From Sipunculus nudus (Eukaryota > Annelida > Sipuncula > Golfingiida > Sipunculidae), in the NCBI GenBank assembly GCA_026874595.1, contig CM049312.1, forward strand, positions 68,230,929-68,294,928: DNA of 64,000 nucleotides, read 5' to 3'. Below, one piece after another: positions 5,185-58,048 of the stretch. The notes under the pieces are model-generated. The model had not been told where the DNA came from. It did not search any database and worked only from the letters and a program-made list of their open reading frames with translations. Made by a program: the position numbers and the translations under genes. Within the stretch, counting starts at the first letter, position 1. Every line of letters starts with the position of its first letter.

Positions 5185-5279
<95 letters not shown>

Positions 5280-8651: not shown

Positions 8652-9826
8652 CTAATTGGAGAGGGAATTCCTCCGAATATAGTAACCTGCGCCCTTTTCA
8701 TGTCTGTAGCTATGGAAGCTCTTTGTAGTTACTTTCGTATTCATCCAGCATGAAGCATACATTTCAAACATTGTGAAACTGTTGCACCAAGGTTGCCTCT
8801 GACAGGTATCTGCGCATACCAATTTGTTGTCGCAAAGCATTTGTATAGAATCTTTTTCGAATACAATGTAATCTCTGGCCGCAATCACCCATTTTGCTGT
8901 GTATCGATGCGACATCGGTGGTGGTTCTACTAACATATGGATAAAAACATATAAACATATATACAAGCTTATAGATGATTCAAAAAGCCATTCAGTGATG
9001 CATACAGTTGAGCACTTCAGGGTTAAGTTTTAAGATCAAATTATAGCTGTTCTGCAGCCGTCGATTAAATTTTGTTGTTTTCAGCCAATTATATAAATTC
9101 ACGTTTTGATTCAGTATATCGTTATTGGAGAATATGTAAGTGTTGCAGAACTTTCAGACTTACCAAGGGTTAGTGATCTTATTTCGACAACTACCTGTAA
9201 AGAATATATAAGGCACCCATCAATTTCCACTTCTGTGAAGTAAGATTTTGCTCCCAGTGACAGCTGGTTTTGCGTTGGATGCAATAAGTACACAGTGCGG
9301 TTCCAACTACATTCATGTCCATCATAAGGTATTACCCCTGTAGAGGGAATGTAAAACCCAATGACATCACCATCCTGGACGGTCATGGGTCTTCTTGGTG
9401 TCACATTATGGATTCCTCGGCTCCTTGCAATGTACTCCTGCGTTCCACCACGGAAAAGGTAACTTAGTTTGGTTTCTTTAGGACGCCACACTTGCAAGAC
9501 GATCTTACCTGGGTTATTTGCATAAAAACTGAATCGGTTGACATTGTAGGAACCCGAACCATTTATTCTTATATATGGCCGAGGAATGACAACATGGTTA
9601 AACCACAAATCCATTTTCCTGCGATGTATTAATTCTGGACCAAATGCGATTAATTTTCCAAATGAAGACCCTGAAAAAGAAAGAAAGGAGCGTAAAAAAA
9701 TCAATAAACGTATGCAAGTAATGCATATAACATTAATAATTCCATTGTCATCCTTATATAATACATTACCTACTTACCTGCCCAGAAAAGAAGCCACATT
9801 GTATCCAAGATGTACCCGACATGCAT
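8652..9826 (-). CDS. Secreted protein: signal peptide, unnamed beta-rich domain, C-terminal PAN/apple domain (copy 1)
   Basis: Spliced as complement(8652..8929, 9164..9670, 9778..9826): 834 nt, 277 residues plus stop. Both introns (107 and 234 bp) are phase 1. Donors are GTAAGTAGG and GTAAGTCTG; the first acceptor follows a pyrimidine tract ending TTTTTCAG, the second is ATATGTTAG. Exon 1 starts MHVGYILDTMWLLFWA, a short hydrophobic signal. Exon 2 gives residues 18-185, rich in alternating hydrophobics, with LQVWRP and QDGDVIGFY motifs, two cysteines and three N-glycosylation sequons (NGS, NVT, NRT). I cannot name this domain. Exon 3 (residues 187-277) has the PAN pattern with CADTCQRQPWCNSF and SCW. 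The second copy at 24464-25637 keeps every splice site and differs at only about 14 of 834 coding positions (8 amino acids), fewer than the surrounding non-coding DNA, which supports a functional gene. An extracellular, probably ligand-binding role is inferred. The exact ATG is the first in frame before the hydrophobic stretch. Confidence 0.85.
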
Positions 9827-12800
9827 TGTCAAACTTAGTGGCTTCTCTGTTTCCAGTAGATATATTGAGAATGCTGGTGATCTGTTTCTGTAATAATTTG
9901 GAAAAAGTAAAGTAGGGCTTTAGAATAGAAAAAATATAAAGTGCAATAATTTATCAGTCGGTATTATAAGCATTTCACCATGATATATACAAGCTTGCAG
10001 GGGAAATGTGGCATGTACTAAAAGAAAAATTGCTCCTCAACAAAGTGCACGCGTATTGCTGTAGGTTGAAGTAAAAACCAGTCGGATGGAAGTTCATCTA
10101 TTCTCGAATTGTTCTTTAAATATGTTTCAATTTATATCAGTCTTTATACATTTGTTAATAATTTTTGCACCTTATAATAAAGAATATTTGTTTGCCTTTT
10201 TTTATTTATAAAAAAATATGTTACTGCAACGGGCTGACGGTTTATCAGTAACGTGAATATGCCAAAGGTAATATGATTTCTCAAATATTTTAAGCTATAT
10301 CAAGTGCAAAATATATATTAATCTTGCCTGTATATTGGGTAAATGGTTTCAAAATTTTTAGGCCAATTTGCAATGATGCTTGGTTGAATTCGACATACAG
10401 GCGATGCATTATTAATTCTTAATGTAAGTATCTAAATATAGATGCTAAGGTATATTAAATAATGAATATAATTTTACCTGGAAAGATTTTACTAAGATCT
10501 CCCTAGATGCTTAGTTTATATATTATCAACTGCTGCGGTTTGTGTCTAAATAAGGAGATAAAGTTCCAATGGATTTAGGTTAAAGCGACCTTATTTTGGA
10601 TCTCCAAAATATTTTACAGGGTCCTCCCCTGATATTCACTAAGTTAAGAGTTTCTAGGTCAAACTGCAAATTTTTAGCCCATCTGATTAATAGGAAGGTA
10701 ACATCATATTCTTTCACATTGCTCACAAAATATCATCATAGTGATCTCATTTCAGATTTCCATGATTTTTTTTTTCACAGGGAACCTCCATATCGAACGG
10801 TAACAAATTGTTCAAATCTGGCATTTAAAATGCATAAATCATGTTCTGTCACATATTTTGCAAAAAAAAATTGGTCACAGGGACCCTATTTCAGTGGTCG
10901 AGCAGACCTTACAATGACCCCCATTTACATAAAGTAGGACGTTTCTTGATCAAACCGTACTTAAAAATTATTATAATATTTTCTTCCTTTAATTAACAGA
11001 GTATATGTTACAGTGACCATATATGTTACAAAGTACATTTCCGCAGGACCTAACAGAATGTTACATTAGAAGATTCTAGGCATAATGGATGAGCATTTTG
11101 TCTCGTCTGAATGTCTCGGGGCTCGAATTCATGTTATGGGCCCGTAGTTAACAGTATATTGGTCCCCATGAGCTAATATCAGGTTTCCAAAGATGATTTG
11201 CGTGGGACTTCCCTTGAAGTTCACTTAGAAGTTCCTAAGCCTAATGATTAAAACTTACGACCTGTAAACGGACGGTCGTCTGGACGGATCGACGGACAGC
11301 TGGAAGACGCAAAAAGGGTGATCACTATAGCGTAGATGACTCATAGTCAGCTGAGTAAAGGATCTTTCTCAAACATGGAAATGTTTTAACAAACGTCAAA
11401 AGTACAGACGTTTACAATAATGAACACATCAATTGACAACAAGTTCCCAGTTTAGAATCTTTTTTGGAGACCCTTTATGTAACCATAATGATTGTTTTCA
11501 AAGTAAAATGGATAATGTACACATATCGCATCGGTCGTCAAGTGAGAGGCCTTAATGAAACGGAAGAAGTCAGGTCAACCAATATAAATTAAGAATCATT
11601 AGATTTTTTAAAAACAAATTTAAAGTTCTCAGATTAAAACAAAACTTCCTGAGTTGATCAATGTTGACTTATACAACGAACTTTGGAATTAAGATATATA
11701 AAAGCCACCTTAATGTTCCATACACCTTGAATTTGAAATAAATAAAAAAAATCTTTATCTGGATTCTGATCAACTATTTTATATTCATTGGTAAAGGATA
11801 TCCCCTAGAGCACCAGATGCCACGTTTTGCATTACATGGCTATTCCTTAGAAAATTCCTGTCATACCAAAAGAAAGATCATTGAAAGAATAAAGCAATGA
11901 ATTAACATTTCTTCACATTTCATCTACTGGTGAATGGGGGGGGGGGGGGGGGGGGGGGAGGGGGTATGGACGAACGTAAATCTTTCTATACAAGTGAATT
12001 AATTTCACCAATAACGTGATCGTGTTAATTATTTTTTTTTCTGATTCATTCTTAGAATTGGAAATTCACTATTATCTTTGTTTACCGGCCTATCATGGGG
12101 TTCACGGATGTGAAAGGTCACCTGATCACATGTTACTGCTTGTAGGTACAATCTGAATATTTTAACTATATATCTAAATTATGTCTGAGAAAATTGAGAG
12201 CATTATGATAAATTATATCTGACTAAATTTTTGTACAATTACGTGATGATGTGCGGGAACCATGAAATATACTATTTCAAACTGTTCCCATTTATTCTTT
12301 TAAATAATATATTTAACCGATATTTAACCATAGGAAAAAGTTCACAAAGTATGAATATGACGTATTTAAAAAACATGGTAATATTGAATAAGGAAAGTAT
12401 ACTTTCTTTCTAATTTTTACATTTTAATAGCTAACATAAATGATAAAAAGGAGGTAAAATTACCAATCCTTTTTGGAAACAATAATGACTACAGTGTGTA
12501 AAATGATATAAAAATGTAGATGATGAAAGGATCCGTCCATTTATTAAATATAACTCAAGTTGATCCAAAGCGGACAATATTTTTATGACAAAAGTATTTT
12601 GTTCTCAGGCTGATGCCGGTAACTGATGCCAAACTGGATTAGACAGTACTTCTAAAATAACCTTTATGAAATCTTTGAGCACAATTTACAAAATGCTTTC
12701 CTCTAAAACTAGACCCCACTCCTGATGACAGAAGGATTAAGTAATAAGGTTGAGTGGACATTTATAATGAATCGGCTGCCTCCGTGTGTAAGCGCTAAAT

Positions 12801-13639
12801 ATTGTCCACCACTTGAGTCCAAACGCTCAGGTTAGTAGTTCAAAAGGTCACCAGTAGAAGGTTAAAGGACACGCTATGTGTATAAATGGTGTATCTTGCG
12901 GGTTGGAGTTTATTAATATTCATAGGGCTAACGAGCACCTTTAGCATTGTTTACGGCCGTATTGTTATTTCTGCACCTTATGAATATTCAGTGCCTATCA
13001 GCGGGTTCTGGTTTAAATGGATAGGCTGAATCTGACACAAACGTGACTGTATATCAAGCTGTTTGAGTTGTTCGTACTTGCCACTTTGTTTGTGAATGTA
13101 ATTCTAGTTACGAAGTCTTTACTTCCAGTATGAAGACTAATTTTGAATACGTACCTTATACTTAAAAGGAAGTTTCATTTAAAGATAGGAAATGCATTTG
13201 TGATCACAAGTTCACAGTAGTTTTGAAAGGCTTCATTTTTATGGTAAGGTGATGTAAAGCAGTAGGCAGCAAAAATGTTTAATAGACAGTTTCAGGAGTG
13301 TCTGCCATTCAGTCCGTCACGTGCTCCATGCACAGATTATTGTTGTGGGTTAAAAATGGGGGTATTATGTTAAAACGCGTATTAAGGTATCACAAATCTG
13401 TTTAATTATGTCATTGCTACCAATGCCAGTGTAAGTTCGTTTGCCTTGTACAGCGCCGGAAAAACGTAATTTGAGTGAGTGACAACGTATGGCATAAGCC
13501 AAGGGTATGACATACGTTCCCGGAGTAGGAAACTTTCTAAGCAGTAGGCCCTCAAGGCATAAGTGCCTTGGTACCTGACATTGCCTTAGAATTTATGAGT
13601 ATGTTTGTGTATTTTTTCGTCATATAGCTTTCAACCGCG
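9827..13639. other. Non-coding, upstream of gene copy 1
   Basis: This is the 5' side of the minus-strand gene. No further exon is needed because the signal exon carries an ATG. The DNA matches 25638-31480 of unit 2 apart from unit-2 additions (27136-28770 and two extra 280-bp repeats). A 60-codon frame at 12231-12413 is present in both copies but has no motif. No promoter element is convincing. Confidence 0.5.
11936..11964 (+). repeat. Poly-G tract
   Basis: About 28 bases that are G apart from a single A. The duplicate at about 29923-29937 is shorter and interrupted by A, so the tract length has changed since the duplication. Confidence 0.95.
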
Positions 13640-13905
13640 AGTGAGACCCCTTCGGCGAGTGGATGGACATCACGGGATCGGGAAAGGTGTCTGGTGAGAC
13701 ACAGACTACCACTGAGAGGCCAGTGGGAGAGTGTGATTCGTCAGGGACGGGAAAGATCGAGATAAGGCTTGTCCGGGCAGTGACTAACCGAGGGCTGAGG
13801 GCGCACCAGTCCATCACAGAAGACCTAGCTGACACCAGAATAAGCGGATCGTGTTGGCGCTACAGACATCCTACCAGATCTCGTGATATCACTGTTAAGA
13901 GTAGG
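13640..13905. other. GC-rich island shared by both units, function unknown
   Basis: A roughly 265-bp block is clearly richer in G+C than its surroundings and about 95 percent identical to 33345-33605. The plus-strand frame is open for 107 codons here but stopped in the other copy (TGTTGG against TGATGG), and most differences between copies would change amino acids. It is therefore probably not a plus-strand coding exon. It could be a retained transposon fragment or a non-coding exon. Confidence 0.4.
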
Positions 13906-14081
13906 TATTTTTGTATATGTTTGGATAAAAGCATTACAGATACGTTTATCATATATGCTTGGCTTCTTCATTACTGTCAGCTTTGAGTGTGTGTGTGTGT
14001 GTGAGTATGTGCACAAGCGCCTGGTTCTTACATAACGACAACGACGTCACACTGGTAATGTCTGGGTTTTCACCGTTGGAG

Positions 14082-14261
14082 TCATAACTGCACATAAATG
14101 TGTCCACTATGTGTTGCATTACAGCTATATTTTCTAACTTGAGATGTCCTTTCAAAATCAATCGGATCATTTGGATGTGGAATAGTCACTCTGTCAAACA
14201 AAAACCTTAGTCTGGGTCGATTTATTAAATCTGATTCGAATGCAACTAGTCGACCAAACAT
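14082..14261 (-). pseudogene. Truncated relic of the beta-rich domain exon
   Basis: The frame MFGRLVAFESDLINR, continuing with FDRVTIPHP and ending IYVQL then TGA, aligns with SFGKLIAFGPELIHR, FNHVVIPRP and IVLQV of exon 2 of the intact genes. Similarity stops after about 58 residues, before the WRPKE segment, and a GT microsatellite follows. The expected acceptor region is one base short of the frame of the intact exon. No signal or PAN exon is seen next to it. Unit 2 has lost the whole segment. It is a dead third paralogue, more diverged than copies 1 and 2. Confidence 0.7.
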
Positions 14262-14289
14262 ATTCCTATTTATGAAACATAAAAAAGAA

Positions 14290-17200
14290 TACATGGATAA
14301 TGGCAAATAAGCTGAGTTACGACAAAGATAATTTTTCAAATTATATTTATATTTTATATAGAAATATTTTTTTCTCTCCAAAATGAATATGATCAACCTA
14401 ATGACATTGAGATACACAGAAGCCAGTTGAAGATAAAATTGGTAAGAATGCACTGAACCCCCCCCCCCCCCCAAGCGGCGTTTTATTTGTACTCGTCAAT
14501 TTCCACATGTTAAGCGGTTTTATCAGACCAATTTGCTGAATTTATTATATTTTCAATATTTCAAATTTCAATTGTTCACCTCAAAAGTCTGATATAGTAT
14601 TTCTAGTCCAAAATAAAGCTAGTAAGTATTGTTGATGGCACAGATGGCCTTAATCTTTCCATTTTTGACTTTATGCATGTATGAATGATTGGCACAAAAA
14701 AAAACCCATAAATATGGAAAAAATTATAACAGCCTATGCAAGTGTCAGATGTTTCCGAAACACAAAAAATATATGCATTGCAGGGAGAGTTTTCAGTTAA
14801 CGTTCGTCCCTGTCAACTCCCTGATTATAAATGTATACAAGATAAAAGAGGATATTATTTACATTTGCATTAAGCTAATGAGCAGCTTTAGAACAAATGA
14901 ACAACTCTTAAGATATAATGAGGACATCTGTTCTACATTTCAGACTTTTAATTTGTTGTGCTAAATAATTTACTTACAGTTATAGATAAATTGTTAAAAG
15001 TAAAAAACACATGCATTGTTTCTGGCAACCATTATATATTTTGCATCAGATAAACGATTACCGATATAATCTCCTTTTTCAATAACTTAAACTTGAAAAA
15101 AAATATCAAATGCAGACTATAGAAATTATATAGCCGTAAATGTACCCGAAAAATACAAAATGTAATTAAGAATAAAAAAGAATCCAAGAATATTGAAACA
15201 AGTTCATACATCCTTCACGGAATGGTTATAAGATCTTTTCATAGCCAGCATTACCCTTAGATCATAAACATATACACAGAGGAAACTATAAATTACATAA
15301 ATTCTTTATCCAGAAGTTTTTGTTTTGACAGGGCAATACAAGTAATCAACTACAATAATTATTCGAGTTTTGTTGTAGAGTACTCCTTGTTGATCAAAGC
15401 TTTAATATATACGAAACTCAACCATGTAAGTATCAATCACGTTAAAATACATACTTCCGATATATTTGCGGGACAATCGTTGCTTGATTAATGGTATATA
15501 GTGAGTGGTATAGGAGGATTGTCATTTCTTGTAACAAAACCTTCGATCCTTGTTTCCGTTTGCTGCATTCTATCAAGCTTTTGGTCTTATTTTTTCACAA
15601 ATGCTTAGAATTAAGATAGAGACGGATAATAAAGAGTTCAAGAAACCAGAAGGTTCAGTAATGAAGCAGACAATGAATTTACAAGCCATTAGATGATCTC
15701 AGATATCGTTAGCCACATGTGTTTTCATCGGGCATAAAAATATCTTTAAGGAAGAGACTTAATGAATATTTATCAAGGAAACGCAGTCCTGCTCTAAATT
15801 GCATAAATGTAAAACATTTACAGCGATATTTTGACAGACCTCTCACATGAAAATGAGCTACGTGCTCCGACTTACCAGGTTTTCTTTACACATATAGCAG
15901 CAAAGGATAGGTGCCATAAAATGTGCTTCTTCGTTGGCGCTGACCTTTTTCCTTTTGTAAGTTTAATTCATTATACACCGATAATTCTGGGAAATATATT
16001 GATTTTTAATGGCGATAACCAAAACAGGTGTTCAAAAAACAAAAGAGGATTCATGCAGTCGATAGTGTATATTTATATAAACGCAGGTTAGCTTGACTCT
16101 GATTGCCTGGAAACAAAAGCCTCAAAGGCCACACTCGAGTTGATCAAACGTTTTAAAAGTGACAACCGGTAAAAGCTGTTCGTATCTATATGCCATTTAC
16201 TTTTGAATAATCAGCTCGGCCTTTATTATCTGCGTGTCAGTAGAAACAACCCCTATAAAGGATAGATTAAAGGGACTTCATCAGAACCCTGCGAAAGCTA
16301 CTTAAATTAAGATCTGGCCAATTGTGCCAAGGGAGCTTTATTTGAACAATCGCAGAAAAGGCGTTTGCCTTAAAAATAAAACAAAAGTGTAAGCACTCTA
16401 GTCGAAAAGGAAATCACAATTGTTATGATATGAAATATTTATTATGTAGAAAATATTGTTGGCCTTTCAAAAAAAAAGATGGAGCAAAAATTCTTCTTAT
16501 AATATGAAATAGTAACTATTCTTGTAAAAGATTCACAATAGTTATGAAATGAAAACGCCCTTTTATAAGACTTCAGGAAGAAGCAAACATTGCCCATCCA
16601 CACGGTGTTTGTTTATTTAACTTAAAGTCAATCCATACATTGTATCACTATAATGTACACTACTTCTGCTAAAGCACAACAAGAAACTCCAACTTGACAT
16701 CGATATAAAATCATGTATTAGTTCAAAATAAAATGAAATTCAAGCACTGATGAGTACAACGGTCCAATAATGCACATGCCAAAAGAACACAATTAAACCA
16801 ACATGAATAAATGCCTGAAGTTTGGCAATCAACATATATAAATAAATAATCCTTATAATCAAAACTCAAATGGACGGGTATGCTGCGGTATATAATAAAA
16901 TGTATATTCTGTCATTTCAGCAAATGAGAAATAAGGAATAATGATCTTCTATATATATTAATGTATGTTTCACCAACCATTAGAGAATATTGCAGATAAG
17001 AGGGCACGAAAGCCGAATAAAAATTTTTTCCCATTTGTTATAGTTGCAATATTTTACGTTCAGACAAGAAGGTCAATTAAAGCAACGCGGGGTACTATTT
17101 AAGAGTCAGTGACTTCTATTGGAATATGCTTTATTTAGAACGGACAATGATAGGCGATCTAATATATCACCACAGGTAATTGATAAATAACTCACCCCAG

Positions 17201-18011
17201 TATTTAACAATTTTAACAAATGGTTTTTTTTAATGATTATCCGCTAAAGTGTTCCATTAAGGAAAAGACAAATTGTTATACACAAGGATGGAATACAGAA
17301 TGCTTGCAAAAAGTTCTTGATGGCTATCATGCGTTCTCAAAAATATTATTTTATGCTCCGGAAAAATCAGGATAGCCCCTGCCATATTTCCTTTGATGTG
17401 AACACTCTTTGACCAACATCCTAAAGAGGATCCAGCCATCTTGTGAGATGCGAGTATACATTATATTTAATATCGGAAATACTGCCAAGTTCTAATAACC
17501 ATTTTCGCAGCATGTTTGATAAACGTTCATTTTCTCAAATACGGTTAATAGTGTACCTGTTTTTCTGTCGCCAAACTTGATGACGAATGTCATTTGGCAG
17601 GCGAATCTTGAAAGAGCCAGTTCATGCGTATTCTTATTATTTCGGGTACGTTAATGCGGTTTACACAGATTATACGGCTTATTCCAGTTGAATTCAATGT
17701 GTATATATAATTACAGTAGGTTATTATTATAAAATGTTACCATAAACTATTGCTAAATGGATAATGTTTAATATTGTCTGAATTATCACGGAGGATTAGG
17801 TGCGAGTCCTACAGTCCTATTGACCACAGGTAATGGTACCCTTTCCACATATAAAAATTTTAATATTTTATATTTTACATCATAACAGTTTTAATTGTTT
17901 ATATGACTTAGCAGGCCTTAACTTGCCTGTCAGTTGATGCATGTTTTATTTTTTCCAATATTAAACCCGTAAGGCACATTCTTGTTTTGTGCGTCAGTGA
18001 CGTCTATTGTG
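14290..18011. other. Non-coding, middle of unit 1
   Basis: The stretch matches 33605-36884 of unit 2. A poly-C run lies at 14458-14473. A 60-codon minus frame at 17257-17439 recurs in unit 2, but its differences are nearly all amino-acid changing. No gene is supported. Confidence 0.5.
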
Positions 18012-18841
18012 TACGGAAGCGTATTGATGCCACCTGTAAAAGAAAGAATAAAGTATACGTACGACATATTATCTCGTACGTACGACATACTATCTCGTAC
18101 GTACGACATACTATCTTGTACGTACGACATAATAAATCTTAAGGATCTGATTCACAGAGTACATAACAGGCCAAATGATATATGTATAAGAAATATATAT
18201 AGGTTAAATAATGTATGTTCTCAACCTCCTTGCAAATAGCTGGAACACCGTTAAAACAAACGTATATATATATTTCTTTTTTTATATTTATATATTCTAT
18301 ACATTTAAAGGCTATTCGATTATATCCTTTTTCTGGGTTCCTAAAAAATTCCAAGGAAGCGAAATATATCAAGTCGTCTGCAGGTCATATACAGAACTTT
18401 CATTTTTAGATAGGTGATTAAATTCTGTTGGCAGCGTTTGATGTTATAACAGTGAACTTGTCATAATGTTAAAAGAAAAAAAATCTTGTCTTTGCGAAAT
18501 TTAAAACACGCGGAACCTCTACCAAATGACCTAATTTAAAGTGTTTGAGAATTAATGATATAATGTGGTTTTGTGGATCGTTAAAAACTTTTAATGCAAA
18601 TACAACCATTGATATGATATAAGGGTAGCAGAACAGTCCACAACCCATTTTATGCGGTACATATAATTTTTCTTTTGAACTAAATAAAAAAAAAAATATA
18701 TATTAAAGACTATAACTCATAGACATGCAATATATATATTTTTTATACATGTATCTGTTGGCCTGTTTTGTAGTCTGTGAATCAATTCCGTAAGATTTAT
18801 TATGTGGTACGTACGAGAAAGTATGTCAACACGCTTCCGTA
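18012..18841. mobile_element. TIR transposon with 6-bp target duplication, unit-1 copy
   Basis: The ends are inverted repeats: left TACGGAAGCGTATTGA (18012-18027) and right TCAACACGCTTCCGTA (18826-18841), 15 of 16 matching. They are flanked by a perfect direct repeat ATTGTG (18006-18011 and 18842-18847). Inside the left part lies a tandem 21-bp repeat, and one inverted copy of that repeat lies just inside the right end. No transposase is visible, so it is non-autonomous. The same element at the matching place in unit 2 shows that it inserted before the duplication. I do not assign a superfamily. Confidence 0.7.
18056..18129 (+). repeat. 21-bp tandem repeat with internal palindrome
   Basis: About three and a half units of TACGTACGACATACTATCTC plus G. 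The TACGTA core is palindromic. Unit 2 has about one unit less (36942-36992), so copy number changed after duplication. Confidence 0.85.
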
Positions 18842-19962
18842 ATTGTGGGCCCAAACCTTAAGAAACACCGCCACTTAACAACTTGTTTTTGAGAGACATG
18901 CTGTTCTTGTTTCTTATGTATACAAGACTTAACGAAAGATGGAGGCGGTATGCCTACTATGACCTGTAAGAAGTATATACAATAGGTTGGGAGCTTTGTT
19001 CAGATAGCAACAACACAGTTTCCGGTTACATATAGTGTTCATTAGAATTGGGTTTATAGCTTGTATGTGAACCTGTGCAGTGGCCACCAGTTAAATAAAT
19101 TAGAATAAAACCCAGTGTGTAGGACCGAACAGGTCGCCATCATGGACGACAATCGGAGATGTTGTTGTAGATCCCTTAGATCCTTTGATCCCTTAGATAT
19201 TAACACTTCCATAGATGCCATGAACTGGTGATGTCTGAGTTGTTTAGTTGATCATATCGCACCCCGAGAACAGAAACCCTTTAAATCACTTTTTTACACA
19301 GTGACAGAAATGAGGAAAAACTGATATGAAAATTATACTTTAGGAATTTTCTTAAATATCCTTCATACTTAAGAAATTAAATTCAGTATGAGAGTCAGTG
19401 GTGGTTAGGTGACTCATATTGTTTGTGATTTGTATTTCTGCTTGCATTACTTTCTTAATTAATTTACCGATTAGTGAGATACAGACTTATTGTACTAGAC
19501 AATAACATACACTGAAAATCATATTTCTACAACTTAATAATTTAATTTTTGTGCCCCAATAGGCCTCTTGGTAAGCCTTCCCTCAGAATATTAAAATAAG
19601 TGTATATCAATCTTATATTTGCATGTTTAATAAGATAATGTGCATATTTAAACCTGCATCGGTGGCTTATTTCTTACCAGGCAGGCGCCAGTGTCTGCCC
19701 ATATGATGAAGTCCGCATCTGGAATTTAAAATATAAGTACTCCAAACATGCTTGCACCTATTTATGATAAACATTACTGTTTTACTGTGGTCAAAACATT
19801 TACATTTATTTTGATATTTAGTCAATGTTTAAGAATTTCCCTTTGTGCACCCCTATAAATGTACTAGTAAGATAACAATAAATTGCTCTGATAAGGCCAA
19901 GTCATACGAATTCGAGCCTCACCGACTGTAAACTCCATTGCTAATGCCGATACAACCCAGAT
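18842..19962. other. Non-coding; holds the junction where unit 1 lacks 4.6 kb
   Basis: The DNA matches 37736-38683 up to about 19805, then switches at once to DNA matching 43313 onward. The 4.6 kb between those points in unit 2 is absent here. No gene is seen. Confidence 0.6.
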
Positions 19963-20000
19963 TTAACCTAGCACTAGTACGAAGCGTTTTCCTGAGCCAT
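19963..20000 (-). pseudogene. Remnant of the terminal PAN exon, cut by deletion
   Basis: These bases match the last coding bases and stop of the PAN exon at 43469-43719 (plus strand GAAGCGTTTTCCTGAGCCAT). Directly after GAGCCAT the sequence jumps to GAGCCGGAACATAG, which matches 44145 in unit 2. About 650 bp holding the rest of the exon is therefore missing in unit 1. Confidence 0.75.
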
Positions 20001-20689
20001 GAGCCGGAACATAGAAGAAAATTGTTTTTTCTTTATTTTCTTGAGCTATCATTTTGGCAGATTTGCAATTATATAAATACACACATATATATAAAACTGG
20101 ATAAAAAATATATTAAATATCAATATTCAATAGTTTGAATATACTATATAATAAAAATAAATAAACATTAATGTGTCATTTTGTTCTCTTGATGCAACAA
20201 TCAACCTTTTTTGCCTTATACACAGACCTTGAGTAATATTTTGGATAATTATCTGTGAATGTATGGAATTATCCTCTCCTTCAATAACAACATACCATAA
20301 CGTGGAAGTTAAGAACATTTACAGATGAATGCAGTATCGAGAAATAAAATGTCACCTTGCTTGAAATTAAAAATTAAATGGGTTGTATAAAGTCAAATAT
20401 ATTTATCTAAATATAAAATGATTAAATAATGTATTTTTATGATGATACCATGTTTGACCTTTTAGTCTCAGAGCTTTTCGACCAATACCCTATTCATTTT
20501 AACTTGCTTTCCTTTGTAACATCTATGGTAGATTGCAGTCAAATTTAACGTGTACCTACACAAGAATACAAAGTTAAACATGTAGTGGATACAGATTTTC
20601 CAATGTCTCCCCATTTTGTCGGACTGGAACCTGCTTCTGCAATAGTTGATAGAGAAACAAGAATGTGAAACAACACAGTCATTATCCAT

Positions 20690-20750
<61 letters not shown>

Positions 20751-22261
20751 CATTTGAAAAAAAAGTCACCCATTCACAGAGACAAACACCTATAAATATT
20801 CACCCTTCAACTATCTATTAATAACGAAACATGAAATTATCAATGAAATAAGTGAATATTACTGTTGACATGTGAGAATTAAGTTAACAATCAGTAACTT
20901 GCATGTACAACAGACACGGGGATTGACGTATCAGGGCAAATTTAGGCTTAAACACATGGATAAATGGACCAAATAGGATCGAAAAATAATTGGCTGGTCC
21001 CCCCTCCCATGTGAATAGTTAGACATTCATTGTTACAAGAATACTTTGTTATGTCACCAGCTAACCTTACCGACTAAAGCGATGAGCCATGAGATGCTGT
21101 TAATTAACAAAGAAGCAGTTATATGCTCACTTTAATCTATTCTTTGGCCGGTAATGACATTTTGCATTAACTGTTATATAAAAAAATATGCACCTGGGAT
21201 AGCACTAATAGGTTAACTAAAACGTATTCCCATACGATGCCATCATGTTTTCGAACAGAATGTCTTATCTCAGATGTTGCATGAAAAATATGTTCATAGA
21301 AATCACTTTTCACAAAAAGTATAAAACGTGTACACAATATGAAACAATATGAAAATGTCCGAAATAATTGTACTTTCTATTATTAAATTTTGATAAAGAC
21401 AAAAAAAAAATATCATATTTATATCTCACCAATACATCAGCATTAAAAACACAGTTAATCTTATTAAAATGGAGAAAAAATAATCCAAACATGCAGATAT
21501 ATTGACTAAATTTACAGACTAGATAAACACGGACTAGATATATAGCCTCTTTAAGCTAAAATACAATAAACCATCTAAAAAAATAAATAACTAAATATAA
21601 GAAACAAAAATTATAAGAAGTGTACACTTATTTATTTCATATATAATTCTTGTTGCAGTATAATAATATTATTTAAAACATATTTGTAAGAGCGGCAATA
21701 ATAAAAATATCCTATTTATATCACTGCAATACATTAGCATATAAAAGCATATAGTAACTCAAATATGAATTACAATTGCAAACCTGCAGATCGATTGAAG
21801 ACATGTACAGACTAGATAGTCACTGACTGCAACCATAGACTAAGGTTAAAAGTTTAATAAATTATCAAAATTTAAAAGAAAATAAAGAACTGATAATAAT
21901 GAAAAGGTTACTCCTTTGTGACTGGATTTTACTGTATAGTAATTCCAGAGTTTATACCAGTATATAAAATCTTTAATAGCCTTCCTTGCCTACCCTAGGT
22001 ACTAGAAAAGCTTTACGGTTACTTTATGCTACATAAGAATGGTTAACATTGCATAGTCGAAACTGATTCTTCGGATAAGCCGGAGTATTGTAATCTATGT
22101 ATTATATACATGACATAATTTTATGTATGCAACTCTGTTTTCCACAAGCAGCCCCCTACTTCTCAGAGCTACTTAAATCCAATGTGAAAAGTACTGTCAC
22201 TGCTTAGTATATAGTAAATAAGTTATTTTGACATGTTTATATTTCTTCCCACTGTTGTTAT
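20001..22261. other. Non-coding, right part of unit 1
   Basis: The stretch aligns with 44145-46280 of unit 2. It is very AT-rich, with a (TA)n tract at 20692-20746 and no supported gene. Candidate splice-like signals near 20620-20650 do not keep a common frame between the two copies. Confidence 0.5.
20692..20746. repeat. (TA)n microsatellite
   Basis: About 26 TA dinucleotides. The matching tract in unit 2 is at 44816-44859. Confidence 0.95.
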
Positions 22262-22437
22262 TATTGACGAGTACCAGCTGCTACAAGGATAACCAAAGAC
22301 ATTAGATTAGTACTGAACATCATGCTTTTCTTGTTCGTTTATCTAAGCTTATTAATGAGTACCAGCTGTTACAAGGATAACCAAAGACATAAGTTTAGTA
22401 CTGAACAAAATGCTTTTCTTGTTTGTCTATCTAACCA
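22262..22437 (+). repeat. Two-copy 86-bp tandem duplication
   Basis: GAGTACCAGCTGCTACAAGG at about 22270 is repeated as GAGTACCAGCTGTTACAAGG at about 22356, each followed by the same roughly 80 bp. The matching place in unit 2 (about 46278) has one copy, so this arose in unit 1 or one copy was lost from unit 2. Confidence 0.85.
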
Positions 22438-22530
22438 ATTGCAATTTCTGCATAAGAATTTAATCTAGAGTTACATTTCTTAATCACATCATGGACAGTG
22501 CAAGATAGATTTTAATCGACAGTTTGTTAA

Positions 22531-27859: not shown

Positions 27860-27907
<48 letters not shown>

Positions 27908-31811: not shown

Positions 31812-31863
<52 letters not shown>

Positions 31864-33333: not shown

Positions 33334-33344
33334 CTACGGTTGAG

Positions 33345-37583: not shown

Positions 37584-37645
<62 letters not shown>

Positions 37646-37735
37646 CATGTATCTGTTGGCCTGTTGTGTTGTCTGTGAATCAGATCCGTAAGATCGTGTG
37701 GTACGTACGACATAGTATGTCAACACGCTTCCGTA
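36885..37735. mobile_element. TIR transposon with 6-bp target duplication, unit-2 copy
   Basis: Same element as 18012-18841, with the same ends and the same ATTGTG flanks (36879-36884 and 37736-37741). It has expanded a TA tract near its right end (37586-37641) and has one 21-bp tandem unit fewer. No coding capacity is visible. Confidence 0.7.
37586..37641. repeat. (TA)n microsatellite
   Basis: About 28 TA dinucleotides within the TIR element. The unit-1 counterpart near 18730 is short. Confidence 0.95.
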
Positions 37736-38683
37736 ATTGTGGGCCAAAACCTTAAGAAACACCGCCACTTAACTTGTTTTTGAGAGACACGCTGTTCTTG
37801 TTTGTTATGTATACAAGACTTAACGAAAGATGGAGGTGGTATGCCTGCTATGACCTGTAGGAAGTATATACAGTAGGTTGGGAGCTTTGCTTTCAGATAG
37901 CAACAACACCATTCCCGGTTACATATAGTGTTCATTAGAATTGGGCCTATAGAATGTATGTGAACCTGCACAGTGGCCGCCAGTGAAATAAATTAAAAGA
38001 AAACCCAGTGTATAGGACCGACCAGGTCGCCATCATGGACGACAATCGGATATGTTGTTGAAGATCCCGTAGATCCTTAGATCCCTTAGATCTTATAACT
38101 CTCATAGATGCCATGAACTGATGATGTCTGAGTTGTTTATTTGATCATATCGCACCCCGAGAACAGAAACCCTGTAACTCATTTTTTACACAATGACAGA
38201 AATGAGGAAAAACTTATATGAAAATCATACTTCAGGAATTTTCTTAAATTTCCTTCATATTTAAGAAATCAAATTCAGTATGAGAGTCAGTGCTTGTTAG
38301 GTGACTCATATTGTTTGTGATTTATAATTTAGATTTTAAACAATATGTGACTCATATTGTTTGTGACTTATTGTACTAGACAATAACAAACACTGAAAAA
38401 CATATCTACAACTTAATAATTTAATTTTTGTGCCCCAATAGGCCTCTTGGTAAGCTTTCCTTAGAATATTAAAATAAGTGTATATCAATCTTATATTTGC
38501 ATGTTTAATTAGATAATTTGCATATTTAAACCTGCATCGGTGGCTTATTTCTTACCAGGCAGGCGCCAGTGTCTGCCCATATGATGATGTCCGCATCTGG
38601 AATTTAAAATATAAGTATTCCAAACATACTTGCACCTATTTATAATAAACTTTACCGTTTTACTGTGGTCAAAACATTTACAT

Positions 38684-41600
38684 GGTACCTTACCTTTGCT
38701 TTCAAGATCAGAGTAGACATTGTATGCATAGATTGTTCAATATAGCGCAATAGGACCAACAAGTTTAAATGGATATGATTCCATTTTGAAAAATATTACT
38801 CTCCAAATCTGTATTAATTATGACTGATCTTGACTGAAATTTTAAGAATTTATTGTTACTTAAAGGATGCTGGTCAACTATTCTTATATCAAAGCTACAC
38901 TATAAGTTACCTGCTAAAGCGATTCTCCTAATTAAGGTCATTGAGACCTAGTTCAGCTGTCTAAGGCCAGCGAATCTTTATAATTGTTTTTATATAATAC
39001 TATGCTGTCTTGGTCATCACCAATGATCTATTGAAATCATGTCATATTTATTAGAAAAATAGGTCCAAAACTAAGATTTACCAAGAGTGTAAACCTGTGT
39101 GGTTTGTTATGACTTTGCTATATAAACAAAATATAACATGGGATATTTGTATAAATAAATTAACTTCTAACCGGCTTCTGTGGTTCAGGGGTAGAGCGCA
39201 GGGCTCAAAGCCGGGAGATCGTGAGTTCGAATCTCAGCCGAGCCGGTGAGATTTTTTACGGTCGACCCCTACCTAGGGTGGGTGCACTGCAGGCCCAATG
39301 GGGAGACTGTACCCAACAGTCGGGTTTCACTCACAAACGAGTGCGCCTTTCGGGGGTTCCTCGGTTTTATGACCAAGCAAGGGGATTGGACACACCCAGA
39401 ACCCGCAGGAGTGAATCACCGAGCCTGGTTGACGCCAGAGCGTTGTGTGCAAGCCCCTGTCACGGAAACCGGAATGGAAATTCTGCGGTTGTATATAGAC
39501 TTAGTTAAGCAAGCATTTCAAAAATGGAGGCGGTTACCTCTACCAAAAAAATATTTAGAAAAAAAATAACTTCTAATATCCCCCTTGACAAAAAATAGGT
39601 TGTGTAACCATGCCTTCAGCCTATTTAAACTTGATAATATGCATGTAAGTATAACGTTTAAAGTTAATTTATATTAAATTCAAATTTAATATACAATTTT
39701 ATCATAGAGATATTCGGAATTGCCAGAGAAATCTTTCTTAGATTTGATAACCATAAAATTTGGATTAAGTTAATCTATTTATTTGTCATAAGAAACTTGT
39801 ATGGATCAATTAATGTACAGTATATAGAAAATATTACATCAGATACCCTTAAAAAAATTAGTTTCAAACTTTACTAGTTCCCTTATCTATTTTAAACTTA
39901 TTTAAGGGAACATGGGAACTCTTTTTTATTGTTCTATAGCCATACTCAATAATTAATCTGCATTTTATGAAAATGGGTCCATTGTAACCTAATTACCATT
40001 TCCGTTCCAGACAGTTTAATAATATTAAAACTTATAATTAATTCAGCAGTACATATTGACAGGAAACAGTCATTCTTGATTAAAAATCAGTTAATACCCC
40101 TTTCATTCTAAATATATTTTTTTAAATAGTGTTTGTCATTTTATTCCATAATATGATCAAAACAAATTTCTGAAATGCTGTTCAAAACCAAATATACATT
40201 TACATAACTAATAATAACTTTTTACTGGATTCTGTATGTTTTGTCATGAGCAGAAATTCTAATAAACATTTGTGTTCTTATTCTCACCAAACTGGGCAGC
40301 CATATCTAATATTATATGAAAAACTGCATGACCTTACTAAAATATAAATTACTTGAATCAATATCCACATTATGTAGAAATCTTAAGGTCTAAACTTTTG
40401 TCTGTATATCAACCTATATTTTGGTATGTTAAGTGCAGTATCTCTGTAACTCAAGTAACATGTACGAGAACACATCAAGCAGACATGTGTGACCAGTGCA
40501 GTAAACCTGTAACTCAAGTTACAGGGTTTTACAAAAAGCTGAAATGGAGTTACATATTTATTGCACTAAGCTTAAATAATTATTTTCTGTTTATATGATA
40601 CCTATCTATATGTTTATAGAAAAGCATGAAAAATCAATTATGAAAAAAAGTTAGTTACAGGGTTACCGTACTGGGGGTGCGGTATTTAAAAAACGGAACG
40701 TTCTCACCACAAATGTATTTTAAATATTTATCACACAAAATAGTTTGGAAAAATAGCGTTTTTGGCAAAATGCCTCTTTCCGTCATAAATGGATCCCTGA
40801 ACAAAAAATATGGGGTGGCACGTAATGATAAAAAGCCTCCCATATGCATGAACTTAAAGAAAACAATGTTTCAGGATCAATTAACAATTTAAGATTAAAA
40901 TCACTTAATGCTATTGAATGAGTTACTTTCATATAATTCAGATGTTTCTGATGTTTTCTACTATATACATTATTTTCCTAACTATAATATCTTTTATTTC
41001 TTTGACGGTTTAATATTTATAACTTATTAATAAGGCGGCACACCCCAGACCCATTAATCGGACCAGTTTGGCATTGGACAGACATTTTGGATTGGGACTG
41101 TTATTGGAAATGGCAAGCTGTACCAGGGAGTGCCTCACATTGTACCCGGCGCCCGTGACTGGACGTCTTAATGTGCGTCTTAATGCGTACTTCTGTCCAC
41201 CACGGCCACACAGGGCATCATCATTAAAATATTACTTATCCAATCGAATAAGAATGTAAAAACACCGTTCCTTGCATTGCATTTTAGACTCTATACTTTG
41301 TCACTCAACCATATATAAACGCTCCCATACCAGTTCACACTAACCAACTGACAAAGAAACCTATGCGCTTCCAAAGCACTTGTGTTAATAAACAAGTTAG
41401 TCTGGCTGAAAGGCGTCACTCTTTCTCTTTTTCAAAACATGCCGGTTTTTTTTCAGTATTTTAATACATTCTTGGGGACATATTTCTTCGATAATCTTAG
41501 ATTGTTCATCGATACCTTACTTTGCGAGTGTCATGTGATTAAGATCTGCGATAAACGTAGGGTCTGCAGAGTTTAAGCCAGGCCTTTATTTGTTTGACTC

Positions 41601-43312
41601 TGGCCCTGGGTGAATTTCATCCTTGGCACCCCTCCTTCAAAGTTAAAGCAATATAAACAGACATATGCCACTGAGACACATCGCTAAAACGCGACTCTAT
41701 TTACCAGAAAATAATCAAAAGAAATATTATATCATGGGTATTTATCCATGATTTACAGACAGCGTATCTCGAGAGAATAATACATACGCTCATGGCAATG
41801 GCTTTGCTACAGCCCCATTGTAATAAAACTTGACGGAAAATCAATAATAATCCTTCTGCGAAAGATTTACTAAGTGTTTTAATTGGTGTTCAAATCATGC
41901 TCGCTAAAAACGATGAAAAAGATGCCTGTGTAGGTAATTATTACGTCTCTATGTCATCATGTCTCAGGTGAAACGACAATCATTTCAGCAATTTTACTTA
42001 AAATATAATTATGATACTGGCTAGCCGGATTAATCGTAGCGTATAACAATAACTTTACAATAAACGAACGATGTAACAATCGATTATAATCGGTTAAATT
42101 TACATTTTTAATCATGTATCAGACCTATTCAACACTGGAGGACAACTATTTGTGATGTAATTAGGTCGGCTGACACTTTTCGTCGAGTTCACGATATCAT
42201 GGGGATATATCGGCAACTGCATTATCTGTACAATTTACTCATTAACACTTTATTTTTTTTTTATTTTAGTTGGAAACAATACAATTGAATCATAAAATAG
42301 ATCGAAATGTATCTTTCCTCACTGCCCTACTAATCTTTTATTTCATCAGGCCATGATAGTCTACTTCTTGGGCCAAGAGACTACGGCTCTATCCCAAAAG
42401 AAATTGAAGGCCAACACTAGTGGTTCCACTGTAGTTGTTCTGTAAACAGAAGCATAGCTATTAGATCTAATTTCTTAATAACATTTCATAGCTAAGGGAT
42501 ATTCACACCCCGGTACATATCGAGCCTGCAGTTATAACAATTAGCATGTAATTGTTTTCTTATGGCTGAAGTGTTATCCTTCAAAAACGTTGGCAATAAC
42601 GGCATGCCCATCCTATGGAAAAGACATGTCTCTCTCGGCTCAGTAAACAGCTACCAACCTAGTTTAATGTCATTTATCAAATGTCAAGGAACGCCCATAA
42701 GCTGTCTGGTGGCAATATCAATTTTACATACCCACTGGCAGAAAACAAGTACCATTTATATTTGAACGAAAGCATCTGGAATGGTTCTTCAAATGATGCA
42801 ATAAGAATACGCCCAAAGCCTGGCCACCACACTGTACTTTTGGTTTACTAACGTTAAGATAGATATGTCTGAGTGATACCTGAAAAAAAAATCCTGAAAT
42901 AAATTAAGGAGTGATATGTTTAGCCCTCTTGGTCTAAAGTATGCCAAGCTCCCGTATTTGGTCCTCTAATTAAATTAAATACCTACAAAAACGCCTGTTA
43001 TAATAACATAATAATATCATATTTTTCTTTGATAACCCATGAACTGAAGCACCTCACTAGTTCAGTCATCCCTTTAATATCTTATGGCTGATACATTTGA
43101 GTAATGAGAAACAAAAGTTAATCAACACGACGTCTATTTTGTACAATTTGTACACAGGAGGGAAGTTAAATTTCATGCAGTAATACATGAACAGAAATAC
43201 ACAAATTAAAACAACGTATAACTTGTGATCATGTGCCAAATGAAGCAGCGTTTGGTTTTAAACTGATTATTTTAAAATTACAATCTGCTGTCAAACTTCG
43301 TAATTTTCTACC
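38684..43312. other. 4.6-kb segment present in unit 2 and partly in unit 0, absent from unit 1
   Basis: The segment holds a SINE (39171-39566) and then DNA whose part 40670-42200 is homologous to 4830-6150 of unit 0. Because the oldest copy has it, loss from unit 1 is more likely than gain in unit 2. A short hairpin CCTGTAACT-CA-AGTTACAGG lies near 40506. No gene is recognised; open frames near 40353 and 42562 lack motifs. Confidence 0.55.
39161..39576 (+). mobile_element. tRNA-derived SINE with 10-bp target site duplication
   Basis: The element body is 39171-39566 (396 bp) between perfect direct repeats TAACTTCTAA (39161-39170 and 39567-39576). The head is tRNA-like: CCGGCTT pairs with GAGCCGG, there is a pol III A-box-like TGGTTCAGGGG (39181-39191) and a B box GTTCGAATC (39225-39233). 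The anticodon stem does not pair, so this is a SINE head and not a tRNA gene. The 320-bp body is GC-rich against its surroundings and ends in an A-rich tail. The perfect duplication suggests fairly recent insertion. Open frames across it are incidental. Confidence 0.85.
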
Positions 43313-43468
43313 TATTTTGATATTTAGCCAATGTTCAAGAGTTTCCCTTTGTGCACCCCTATAAATGTTATAGTAAGATTACAGTAAATTGCTCTGATAA
43401 GGCCAAGTCATACGAATTCGAGCCTCACCGACTGTAAACTCCATTGCTAATGCCGATAGAACCCAGAT

Positions 43469-43719
43469 TTAACCTAGTACATAGTACGAAGCGTTTTCCT
43501 GAGCCATTTGCCAGAAATAAGGGCTTCCAAGGGCATCTTTATGCAACCAACACGTGCCGCTATTTGCAGCATAGGTGAAACTGAGACAGCGTATTTTCTG
43601 TTGACAAGCAACAGCACATTCTTCCTCGCTTTTTAGGTTAATGGTTTCAGATTCTTCTTGAAATATTTTACCACCCTTGAATATCCGAATCCAAGACATG
43701 TTGTAGGGGGTTTTTGTTC
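43469..43719 (-). CDS. Terminal PAN/apple-domain exon of an otherwise unrecognised gene (partial)
   Basis: Frame MSWIRIFKGGKIFQ onward to YYVLG and a TAA stop. It has the PAN pattern ECAVACQQKIRCLSFTY followed by TCWLH, the same spacing as in the complete genes here. The acceptor is taken as TAGAGAG before GAACAAAA, which gives a phase-1 start like the sister exons; ATTGTAG four bases upstream is an alternative giving phase 0. No partner exon (signal, SUEL or beta-domain) was found between 43720 and 46455. The gene is either incomplete or has exons too diverged to see, or this is a surviving orphan exon. Unit 1 has lost nearly all of it. Confidence 0.6.
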
Positions 43720-44813
43720 CTCTCTACAATATATTTGAATAAAAGATGAAAAATTACATACATTATAATAAATGATATGTCATACATTATAATAAAATGA
43801 AATCAACCCTGTTCTTTGTTCATTTTATATTCTTTATAAATACCCACATGATCCTGTAAGCAACTTCTCAAAAGTCGGTTTATGGTATAATTTATCGCGG
43901 CACTCACGTCCCGTTGCAATGGACATGTGCTTTATACTCTGAGAATTCAAAACCTTATCTGATGCTTTATCAATATGATCATACAGTCATCCTTCATTCA
44001 GTAAATATCATTGATTTCATGAAAAGAACTCTGATAAGATGAATGGTGTCGTATGGCGCTGCAATAACAATGAAGTCACTCCAGCTATCACGATGAGGTC
44101 TGTTGGTCACAGGAGGGCCGATCAGCAGGGTATCGGCGTATCAATGAGCTGGAACATAGCGTAAAATTATTTTTTCTTTTTTTTTCTTGAGCTATCATTT
44201 TGGCAGATTTGCAATTAACGAATATATATATATATATAAACTGAATACAAAAAAAAATTAAATATCGATATCCAATAGTTTGAACAGACTATGTAATTAA
44301 AAAAAAGATAAACATAAATGTATCATTTGGTTCTCTGGATGCAACAATCAACTTTTTTTGCCTTATTCACAGACCTTGAGTAATATATTGGAATAATTAC
44401 CTGTGAATGTATGGAATTATCTTCTCCTTCAATAACAACATACCATAACGTGGAAGCTAAAAGCATTTACAGATAAATGCAGTATCGAGAAATAAAATGT
44501 CGCCTTGCTTGAAATTAAAAATTAAAGTGTGGTATAAAGTCAATGGCATTTATCTAAATATAAAATGATTAAATAATGTGTTTTTATGATGATACCATGT
44601 TTGACTTTTTTGTCTCAGGCTTTCCTTTGTAATATCTATGGTAGATTGCAGACAAATTTAATGTGTACCTACATAAGAATACAAGGTTACATGCAGTGGA
44701 TACAGATTTTCCCATATCTCCCCATTGTTTCGAACTTGAACCTGCTTCTGCAATAGTTGATAGAGAAACAAGAATGTGAAGTTACACAGTCATTATCCAT
44801 GTATATAAATGTT

Positions 44814-44860
<47 letters not shown>

Positions 44861-46640
44861 AAAGCATTTGAAAAAAAAGTTACCCATTCACAGAGACAAA
44901 CACCAAAAACAATCAATAACTTCCATGTACAACAGACACCGGGATTGACGTATCTGGGCAAATTTAGGCTTAAACACATGGATAAATGGACCAAATAGGA
45001 TCGAAAAATAATTGGCTGGTCCCCCCTCCCATGAGAATAATTAGACATCCATTGTTACAACATTACTTTGTTATGTCACCAGCTAACCTGCCCGACTAAA
45101 GCGGTTAGCCATGAGATGCTGTTAATTAGCAAAGAACCATTATATGCTCACTTAAATCTATTCTTTGGCCGGTAATGACATTTTGCATTAACTGATATAT
45201 AAAACATATGCTATTGGGATAGCACTAAAAGGTTAACTAAAACGTATTCCCATACGATGCCATCATGATTTCGAACAAAATGTCTTATCTCAGATGTTGA
45301 ATAAAAAATATGTTCATGGAATTCAATTTACACAAAAAGTATAAAACGTGTACACAATATGAAACAATATGAAAATGTCCGAAGTAATTGTACTTTCTAT
45401 AATTAAACTTAAATACAACCAATAAAAATATCATATTTATATCTCACCAATACAGCAGCATTAAAAACACCGTTAATCTTATTAAAATGGAGAAAGAAAT
45501 TATCCAAACATGCAGATCTATTGACTATATTTACAGACTAGATAAACACGGACTAGATATATAGCCTCAATAAGCTAAAATACAATAAATTATCTAAAAA
45601 ATAAATAACTAAATATAAGTAACAAAAATTATGAGAAGTATAAATTATATCATATATAATTCTTGTTGCAGTATTATAATATTATTTAAAACATATTTGT
45701 AAGAGCGGCAATGATAAAATATCCTATTTATATCACAGCAATACTTGGCATATAAAAGCATATAGTAACTCATATATGAATTCCAATTGCAAACCAGCAG
45801 ATCGATTGAAGACATGGACCGACTAGATAGTCACTGACTGCAACCATAGAATAAGGTTAAAAGTTTAATAAATTATCAAAATTAAAAAAAAATTAAGAAC
45901 TGATAATAATGAAAAGGCTACTCCTTTGTGACTGGATTTTACTGTATAGTAATTCAAGAGTTTATACCAGTATATAAAATCTTTCATAGCCTTTCTTGCC
46001 TACCCTAGGTACTAGAAAAGCTTTACGGTTACTTCATGCAATACAAGAATGGTTAACATTGCATAGTCGAAACTGATTCTTCGGATAAGCCAAAGTATTG
46101 TAATTTATGTATTATATACATGACATAATTTTATGTTTGCAACTCGTTTTTCACATGCAGCCCCCTACTTCTCAGAGCTGCTTAAATCCAATGTGAAACT
46201 TCCTGCCACTGCTCAGTATATATTAAATAAGTTATTTTGACATGTTTATATTTCTTCCCCACTGTTGTTGTTATTGATGAGTACCAGCTGCTACAAGGAT
46301 AACCAAAGACATTAGATTAGTACTGAACATAATGCTTTTCTTGTTCGTTTATCTAAGCAATTACAATTTCTGTTTAAGAATTTAATCAAGAGTTACATTT
46401 CTTTATCACATCATGGACAGTGCATAATCAAGATAGATTTTTATCGACAGTTTGTTCGAAGAAATAAACCCTTTCTTGATATATTATGTTTTATTCATCA
46501 CACTTTTTCATTCTTCATTTACTTCCAAATAATATTGATTCAGTTTTACCAAGATGTAAGATGGTCTGTTATCTACAAGCCATATGTGTTTATTTTAAGC
46601 CCTCTGCTGAGTTGTTGTTCAATATGTTTGTTTTTAAACA
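43720..46640. other. Non-coding, right part of unit 2 and junction
   Basis: 43720-44140 is unit-2 specific relative to unit 1 and contains two short minus-strand open stretches without recognisable motifs. 44145-46455 matches 20001-22525. After 46455 the duplication ends. A (TA)n tract lies at 44816-44859. Confidence 0.5.
44816..44859. repeat. (TA)n microsatellite
   Basis: About 22 TA dinucleotides. Counterpart of the tract at 20692-20746. Confidence 0.95.
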
Positions 46641-48853: not shown

Positions 48854-48893
<40 letters not shown>

Positions 48894-51683: not shown

Positions 51684-53100
51684 ATGCAGAAGAAGAAAAT
51701 GCTGTCTATGCTTGTATTCTGGGCTGTCATGTCCACAAGTGAATGCATAGGTAGGTATATCAAACAGAGTTTAAAATTAGGAAAGATATGTTAATGTCAA
51801 AATATCGAATAATTTCAAAGTCCAGATAAGTAATTTCAGAGTTTTTGCACACGTTTGCTGAAAATTCTGATGAAAGTTTACGTTAATCCCATGCGCAAAT
51901 CCAAAGTTGAACATGACCGGCACTTAATTTTTAAGGAAAATTAAATCTTTATATTGGAGATGTAATACGGTAATATATATAATATAACAATACATTTTCT
52001 GAAATATGAAATATGATCTGAATTAGTATATTTTCTCTGGTATTTTTGTACATTTCCTTTCTTATAGTAATTCCTATGTTATCCAAACAACTTCACAGTT
52101 CCTAAGATGGGGAACGACCAAAATCTCTCTTGGGTATTTTTATTTACTGTCTTTAATGTTTGGGTTAATTGATAGATGTTTCCTTATTTAATGTCCTCCA
52201 CTTACAGAGCAGTCCGGTTTGACCTGTGAAACAAAAATAGTACAGCTGTCTTGCCCACGTGATTGTGCAATCCGCGTCATGTCTGCGTTTTATGGACGGA
52301 AGCGAATGGATCTTTGTCACCATCCTGATCCAAAGTCAGTACGGTACTGTTCGGGGATAAATGTTGTAACATATTTCCAGCAACTATGTGATGGAAAGAA
52401 TAACTGTTCCACGAGAGCTTCCAATGATATGATGGGAGACCCTTGCCAGGGAATAAGCAAATATCTGGAACTTACCTACACCTGTGAACAAATTGGAGGT
52501 CAGTAAATGATGTATAAGAAAAAGTATAGACTCTACATGTTTCAGGCGGTGACAAGGGAGAATATTACAGACACGTACAGTATATTGAGACATGGTGTGT
52601 ACCCAATAGCAGCTGTTAAAATACCAATAAACTATTCAAAAGGTGTAGACAAATGTCAGAGAGACGTATATTTTAAATATAAGAACGCGCATAATGATGG
52701 GTATGGTTACAGTAAAATCTTTGGGGTCTCAGTCCTTACGGCGTATCAAATAAAAATAGCACTAACATATGCATTTCTCTACCTGTCATATTTTATTAGT
52801 TAACTACCTTGGCCTGAAGAATTTTATGACACAGACACCTGCATATATGCTTCCTCTATAGTTTAGTTATTTTCAGATATTGGCAAGATATTTGACGATT
52901 ACCGCTACTGCCGAGTTGATCAAAACAAAGGAAATCTAGGGAAACATCAAGGTCTTATCAGGTACGGCTTGCAGTGTGCGAGGGAGCCTTGCTGTAATGG
53001 ATTCTCACTCACTTCATCGTCATCTGGTGACTTCAAATGTGATCTATGGTTTGTTAGGGAGAATCTAACGTCTCCAGTCGTTCAATATCAGCGATGTTAA
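51684..53100 (+). CDS. Secreted SUEL (rhamnose-binding) lectin with C-terminal PAN/apple domain
   Basis: Join 51684..51750, 52208..52498, 52877..53100: 582 nt, 193 residues plus stop. Both introns (457 and 378 bp) are phase 1, with donors GTAGGT and GTCAGT and acceptors CCACTTACAG and TTATTTTCAG. Exon 1 starts MQKKKMLSMLVFWAVMSTS, a clear signal peptide. Exon 2 (residues 24-119) is a SUEL/Gal_Lectin domain: LSCPRDC, the AFYGR motif, LCDGKNNC and the closing GDPCQGISKYLELTYTC, with nine cysteines against the usual eight. YGR and DPC are the segments that contact sugar in characterised rhamnose-binding lectins. Exon 3 (residues 121-193) is PAN-like: LQCAREPCCNGFSL and KCDLWF, ending QRC and stop. 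The architecture mirrors the minus-strand genes with a different middle exon. Extracellular carbohydrate binding is inferred from the family. A second ATG at 51699 is an alternative start. An upstream 5' UTR exon cannot be excluded. Confidence 0.88.

Positions 53101-57576: not shown

Positions 57577-57634
<58 letters not shown>

Positions 57635-57786: not shown

Positions 57787-57840
<54 letters not shown>

Positions 57841-57992: not shown

Positions 57993-58048
<56 letters not shown>

Follow-up and report, generated by a model that had tools for sequence, protein, structure and literature searches.

Two likely families of small, putatively secreted proteins in a shared gene cluster of Sipunculus nudus

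A cluster of small genes on contig CM049312.1 (C7) of the annelid Sipunculus nudus most probably brings together two distinct families that encode small, presumably secreted proteins. We analyzed a window of 64,000 nucleotides (C7:68230929-68294928), which lies inside a 1.43-Gb animal genome and contains three genes, designated A, B and C. According to our preferred interpretation, A and B arose by a recent tandem duplication, while C derives from a second family. An initial annotation of this DNA had proposed that all three genes are built on a common PAN chassis, the middle exons of which were exchanged by exon shuffling. A common chassis is not supported by our analysis, and what had been taken for domain swapping is for the most part simple duplication of neighbouring genes.

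Exon plan and duplication of genes A and B

Genes A (8652-9826) and B (24464-25637) are located on the minus strand and encode 277 amino acids each, whereas gene C (51684-53100), encoding 193 amino acids, is located on the plus strand, in agreement with the opposite orientations annotated initially. The shared plan of a phase-1 first exon, a middle exon with phase-1 introns on both sides (class 1-1) and a terminal PAN-type exon carrying the stop codon was also confirmed, as exon limits and phases could be rebuilt with GT/AG splice sites and the cumulative phase is 1 after exon 1 and after exon 2 in all three genes. Class 1-1 modules were likewise found in their relatives. In gene A, the putative signal exon (9778..9826) comprises 16 codons plus a split codon and ends in phase 1. 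It is followed by the middle exon with an unnamed domain (9164..9670; 507 bases) and by the terminal exon with an A-type PAN and the stop (8652..8929). Gene B has a copy of exon 1 at 25589..25637, a class 1-1 middle exon at 24976..25482, the domain of which is 98% identical to that of gene A, and a terminal PAN exon with the stop at 24464..24741. The exons of gene C are a signal exon ending in phase 1 (51684..51750), a class 1-1 middle exon with a SUEL lectin domain (52208..52498) and a terminal exon with a divergent C-type PAN and the stop (52877..53100). A signal-peptide reading of the first exons is plausible, and judged by their sequences A, B and C look like real animal genes that code for small, presumably secreted proteins.

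Genes A and B are embedded in a tandem segmental duplication, in which unit 1 (6681..22531, ~16 kb) holds gene A and unit 2 (22532..46456, ~24 kb) holds gene B together with a relic, D. Positions 6681-11363 and 22532-27138 are 93% identical over ~4.7 kb, more collinear blocks follow up to 22348 and 46358, and diverged copies of parts of the duplication with 64-74% identity are found at 2494-6158. No collinear match in unit 1 was detected for the unit 2 segments 43516-44144, which contains pieces of gene D, and 38683-43313, nor in unit 2 for the unit 1 segment 13915-14386, which contains a piece of a further relic, E. The A and B proteins are 97% identical and thus, given their location in the tandem duplication, count as one case. 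Substitutions between both genes affect 14/834 positions in coding exons and 89/2087 in introns and flanks (Fisher p = 3.5e-4; dN 0.013, dS 0.031). The lower divergence of the coding exons makes them look constrained.

The duplicated region also contains a 281-bp tandem repeat, present in three copies in unit 2 (28726-29555), to which a single stretch in unit 1 starting at 11357 corresponds. Beside the diverged copies, a possible 49-base signal exon (MKRLLFNWFLCIFMSL; 2368-2416, minus strand) ends in phase 1 before GTAGCT, and no downstream exon was found for it.

Terminal exons of the A and C types

When compared with PAN_1 (PF00024), the terminal exon of gene A scored 18.2 bits and the open frame of gene B 16.4 bits, i.e. 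both remained below the cut-off of 21.4 bits. Both exons are clearly homologous to exons that pass this cut-off: the open A-type PAN exon of relic D (43472..43723, minus strand) scored 47.5 bits and that of locus L019 37 bits, and tblastn with the terminal exon of gene A detected these exons with 2.5e-5 and 8e-17, respectively. A profile of the PAN family, in which gene A was included, matched the exon of gene A with E 2e-33.

The middle exon of gene C is indeed a SUEL lectin as initially annotated, matching PF02140 from position 1 to 80 of the 80-position profile with 69.2 bits (4.1e-19; cut-off 31.4). For its terminal exon, no Pfam family was found at E up to 10, and a profile built locally from 17 PAN exons provided no significant match (E 2.1). 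Alignment of a C-type family profile with an A-type PAN profile by hhalign gave a probability of 82.6% (E 9.6e-6, 30 columns), with three control pairs reaching 0.3% or less, and the profiles of both types produced weak cross-matches. The AlphaFold model of the terminal exon contains a core of helix and hairpin at low confidence (pLDDT 53). Foldseek searches with this model returned nothing at E 0.001 or better and no PAN structure among the matches listed (50 of 420). The hhalign result, the weak cross-matches and the low-confidence helix-plus-hairpin model suggest that the C-type exon encodes a remote relative of the PAN domain.

Nine matches to the terminal exon of gene C, including itself, are present in the genome, six of them on C7 and three on C16. 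A SUEL exon is located upstream in four of the nine cases, namely within ~1.1 kb in gene C, L042 and L043, and after ~4.6 kb in L044/L048, where tblastn with the queries used found no other module in the gap. The SUEL match nearest to L050 is 7 kb away, the gap having been read in part. Altogether, 96 SUEL matches were counted. By these sequence criteria, gene C is a member of a second, smaller family composed of signal exon, SUEL lectin and C-type PAN.

According to the initial annotation, the three genes should have PAN exons that resemble one another more than they resemble those at other places in the genome. This was found for A and B only, as recent duplicates, and fails for A/B versus C, since phylogenies of the PAN exons alone placed the terminal exons of A and C in separate groups. 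All nine C-type terminal exons formed one clade with support of 100/99 in a tree of 31 rows and of 100/100 in a second tree of 26 rows. A clade uniting the PAN exons of A and C as sisters was rejected (p-AU 2.3e-5), and so was a clade comprising the 11 rows of a C7 set (p-AU 0.005). The A/C pair had been named by the initial annotation, and the C7 set was chosen by us. Gene B, a near-copy of A, and L018, a near-copy of L010, were omitted from both trees, and L002, which is identical with gene D, was entered once. The second tree additionally lacked the five divergent rows L001, L005, L011, L015 and L016, of which L005, L011 and L015 were long-branched in the first tree.

The unnamed middle domain and its partners

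No Pfam family matched the middle exon of A and B at E 0.05, and at E up to 10 the exon of gene A obtained one sub-threshold match alone (E 0.23). Nine members of the domain family searched against Pfam and NCBIfam yielded no significant family either (best E 0.086 and 0.07, taken as chance), and a search of solved structures with a profile of these nine retrieved nothing up to an E of 10. The AlphaFold model, calculated from two near-identical sequences, consists of strands only and is with a pLDDT of 37 too poor for a fold search. Hence, of the initial description as an unnamed beta-rich domain, "unnamed" stands, while "beta-rich" is weakly suggested by this model.

Searching the genome with the middle exon retrieved 83 matches, which include pieces of one exon; 46 are located on C7, the others being distributed over C3, C4, C8, C9, C12 and C16. 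No relative was detected in the viral contigs scanned. The 30 best loci include 21 with an A-type PAN exon on the same strand no more than 1.5 kb downstream (seven of these PAN exons belong to the training set of the profile and one more is gene B), and at none of the 30 did the C-type profile score better than the A-type profile. Where a PAN exon is present, i.e. in these 21 relatives, translation would end 1 to 7 codons past the PAN match. Conversely, six of 20 PAN loci, besides the locus of gene D itself, possess an upstream middle-domain exon within 1.5-kb flanks. Reading by hand revealed in these six a class 1-1 exon with a phase-1 PAN exon behind it, the PAN acceptor being ambiguous in L008 and the frame broken in L007.

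Mechanical choice of splice sites assigned phase 1 to 27/30 middle-exon acceptors, 26/29 middle-exon donors and 17/20 PAN acceptors. The exceptions are the broken copies L062, L068, L071 and L073, the donor of L083, which was read otherwise by hand, L086 (the L008 gene) with its ambiguous PAN acceptor, and the acceptor of L088. Locus L074, with PAN and middle domain in one open frame, was considered as an intronless copy and rejected, as its sequence contains a phase-1 donor and thus an intron without stops. As far as sequence comparison goes, the plan of A and B is that of a large, stable two-domain family, the dozens of members of which occur both dispersed and in tandem.

Exon exchange, alternative explanations and significance

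Several observations weigh against our two-family interpretation. Nine of the 30 best middle-domain loci have no PAN exon within 1.5 kb, and in L090 (C9:55089000-55091300, minus strand) pieces of two domain copies, apparently split by an intron, share a 2.3-kb stretch, indicating that the middle domain is not bound to the plan of signal, domain and PAN everywhere. The PAN trees were built from 88-89 columns, with the C clade on a long branch. All gene models are spliced predictions from genomic sequence alone, and a simple hydrophobicity scan is passed by exon 1 of gene C and not by exon 1 of gene A. Finally, 1.6 kb of one strand at locus L051, which is located outside the window (C7:68.334-68.336 Mb), accommodate a middle-domain exon, an open reading frame (ORF) and a C-type PAN exon in this order. 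The middle-domain exon has a phase-1 donor, the PAN exon has a phase-1 acceptor, and the ORF between them could be a class 1-1 exon. As L051 pairs the middle domain with a C-type PAN, both families are not perfectly separate. The locus contains stops and a frame break and may therefore be a deletion relic. Of ten middle domains compared, that of L051 has the longest branch, and a scan of the preceding 3.5 kb, which also missed the signal exon of gene A, detected no signal exon.

A further sign of exchange comes from C16, where the C-type PAN exons of L053, L054 and L055 (27-33% identical to that of gene C) are preceded by a conserved cysteine-containing ORF, which is neither SUEL nor middle domain and has an acceptor read as phase 0. 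No intact hybrid gene was found among the loci read. The partners of C-type exons are SUEL, the decayed middle domain of L051 and the C16 ORF. Thus, of the proposed domain exchange by exon shuffling, the phase-1 modules in a mixed cluster are supported and the shared chassis is not, and a weaker version survives: the C-type exon may have kept different company, and exchange on it is possible. It is a more tentative proposition, which we regard as rather doubtful, that the C-type PAN is a genuine acceptor, to which SUEL, the unnamed domain and the C16 ORF were joined via phase-1 introns as mutually unrelated first domains, and that the C7 cluster still makes hybrids by deletion between equal-phase neighbours, L051 being a failed one.

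A stronger alternative claim assigns A/B and C to a single family, as variants with one PAN chassis and middle exons exchanged by exon shuffling. It could draw on the three-exon plan and phases shared within one cluster, on the remote homology of A-type and C-type PAN detected by hhalign, on the decayed hybrid L051 and on the other ORF upstream of C-type PAN on C16. However, both families use phase-1 introns between modules, which by itself makes their plans look interchangeable. According to PMC8001218, the shuffled extracellular modules of animals generally belong to class 1-1, and an excess of phase-1 introns is observed around the sites where signal peptides are cleaved. Hence, a common chassis cannot be deduced from a common phase by itself. 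Moreover, the rejection of both PAN clades, the non-significant score of the 17-exon PAN profile with the exon of gene C, the A-type PAN as partner of the middle domain at 21 loci and the possible relic nature of L051 all speak against one chassis, rendering it improbable. Very unlikely is the idea that A, B and C are pseudogenes or fragments of larger multi-exon genes, which the decayed-looking neighbours and the purely genomic gene models might suggest, as their reading frames contain no stop and no frame break, the coding exons of A and B diverged less than introns and flanks, and the stop closely follows the PAN match in 21 relatives.

The mixed-orientation, mixed-family cluster extends past the window. 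Several of its members look decayed, i.e. D, E, L041, L042 and L051. Relic D has, in addition to its PAN exon, a truncated middle-domain exon (43997..44140, minus strand), and relic E consists of a truncated middle-domain exon (14085..14258, minus strand; family profile E 4e-10). A weak match to reverse transcriptase (RVT_1, 1.8e-5) came from 42673-64000, its exact place not having been found; it was not recovered when 59401-64000 was searched again at E 0.01. A 206-bp tandem repeat in three copies (98%) is present at 57473-58092.

With its full-length SUEL domain, the middle exon of gene C resembles L-rhamnose-binding lectins (PF02140) including the solved relatives 5h4s and CSL3 (2zx0). In phmmer searches, the SUEL domain of gene C matched 5h4s over three stretches (2.1e-47) and CSL3 over two, whereas gene C has a single SUEL domain and, C-terminal to it, a PAN exon. 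Among the literature matches listed, no title referred to an architecture of SUEL and PAN. PAN/apple proteins (PF00024) are represented by the exon of gene D, to which that of gene A is related, although the latter stays below the cut-off and that of gene C lacks a Pfam match. In having phase 1 at all internal boundaries, A, B and C resemble the class 1-1 modular extracellular proteins of Metazoa as described in PMC8001218, but their architectures are very short (one domain plus PAN) and one domain has no Pfam name. Expansion of secreted lectin-like genes by tandem duplication is likewise reported for the C1q-domain genes of bivalves (PMC6835236), which differ in their domains.

According to the two-family interpretation, A and B are young tandem copies of a gene composed of signal exon, unnamed domain and A-type PAN. 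The cluster would grow and decay through segmental duplication, deletion and pseudogenisation, with copy number shifting by duplication and loss. In the small secreted proteins, the first domain would bind a ligand, i.e. sugars in the case of SUEL, and PAN would make protein or sugar contacts or form oligomers. We consider it somewhat favoured that the proteins are secreted and recognize sugars or microbes, SUEL and perhaps the unnamed domain serving in binding and PAN as contact or oligomerization part. A role in defence is a guess from what is known of these families.

The cluster illustrates that modules with phase-1 boundaries, being so general, can give the impression of domain exchange, and that duplication can be told apart from shuffling with the data of one genome. 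It brings out a domain with 83 genome matches, of which the nine members scanned have no significant Pfam or NCBIfam family, and it provides a place to look directly for exon exchange between lectin-like genes.

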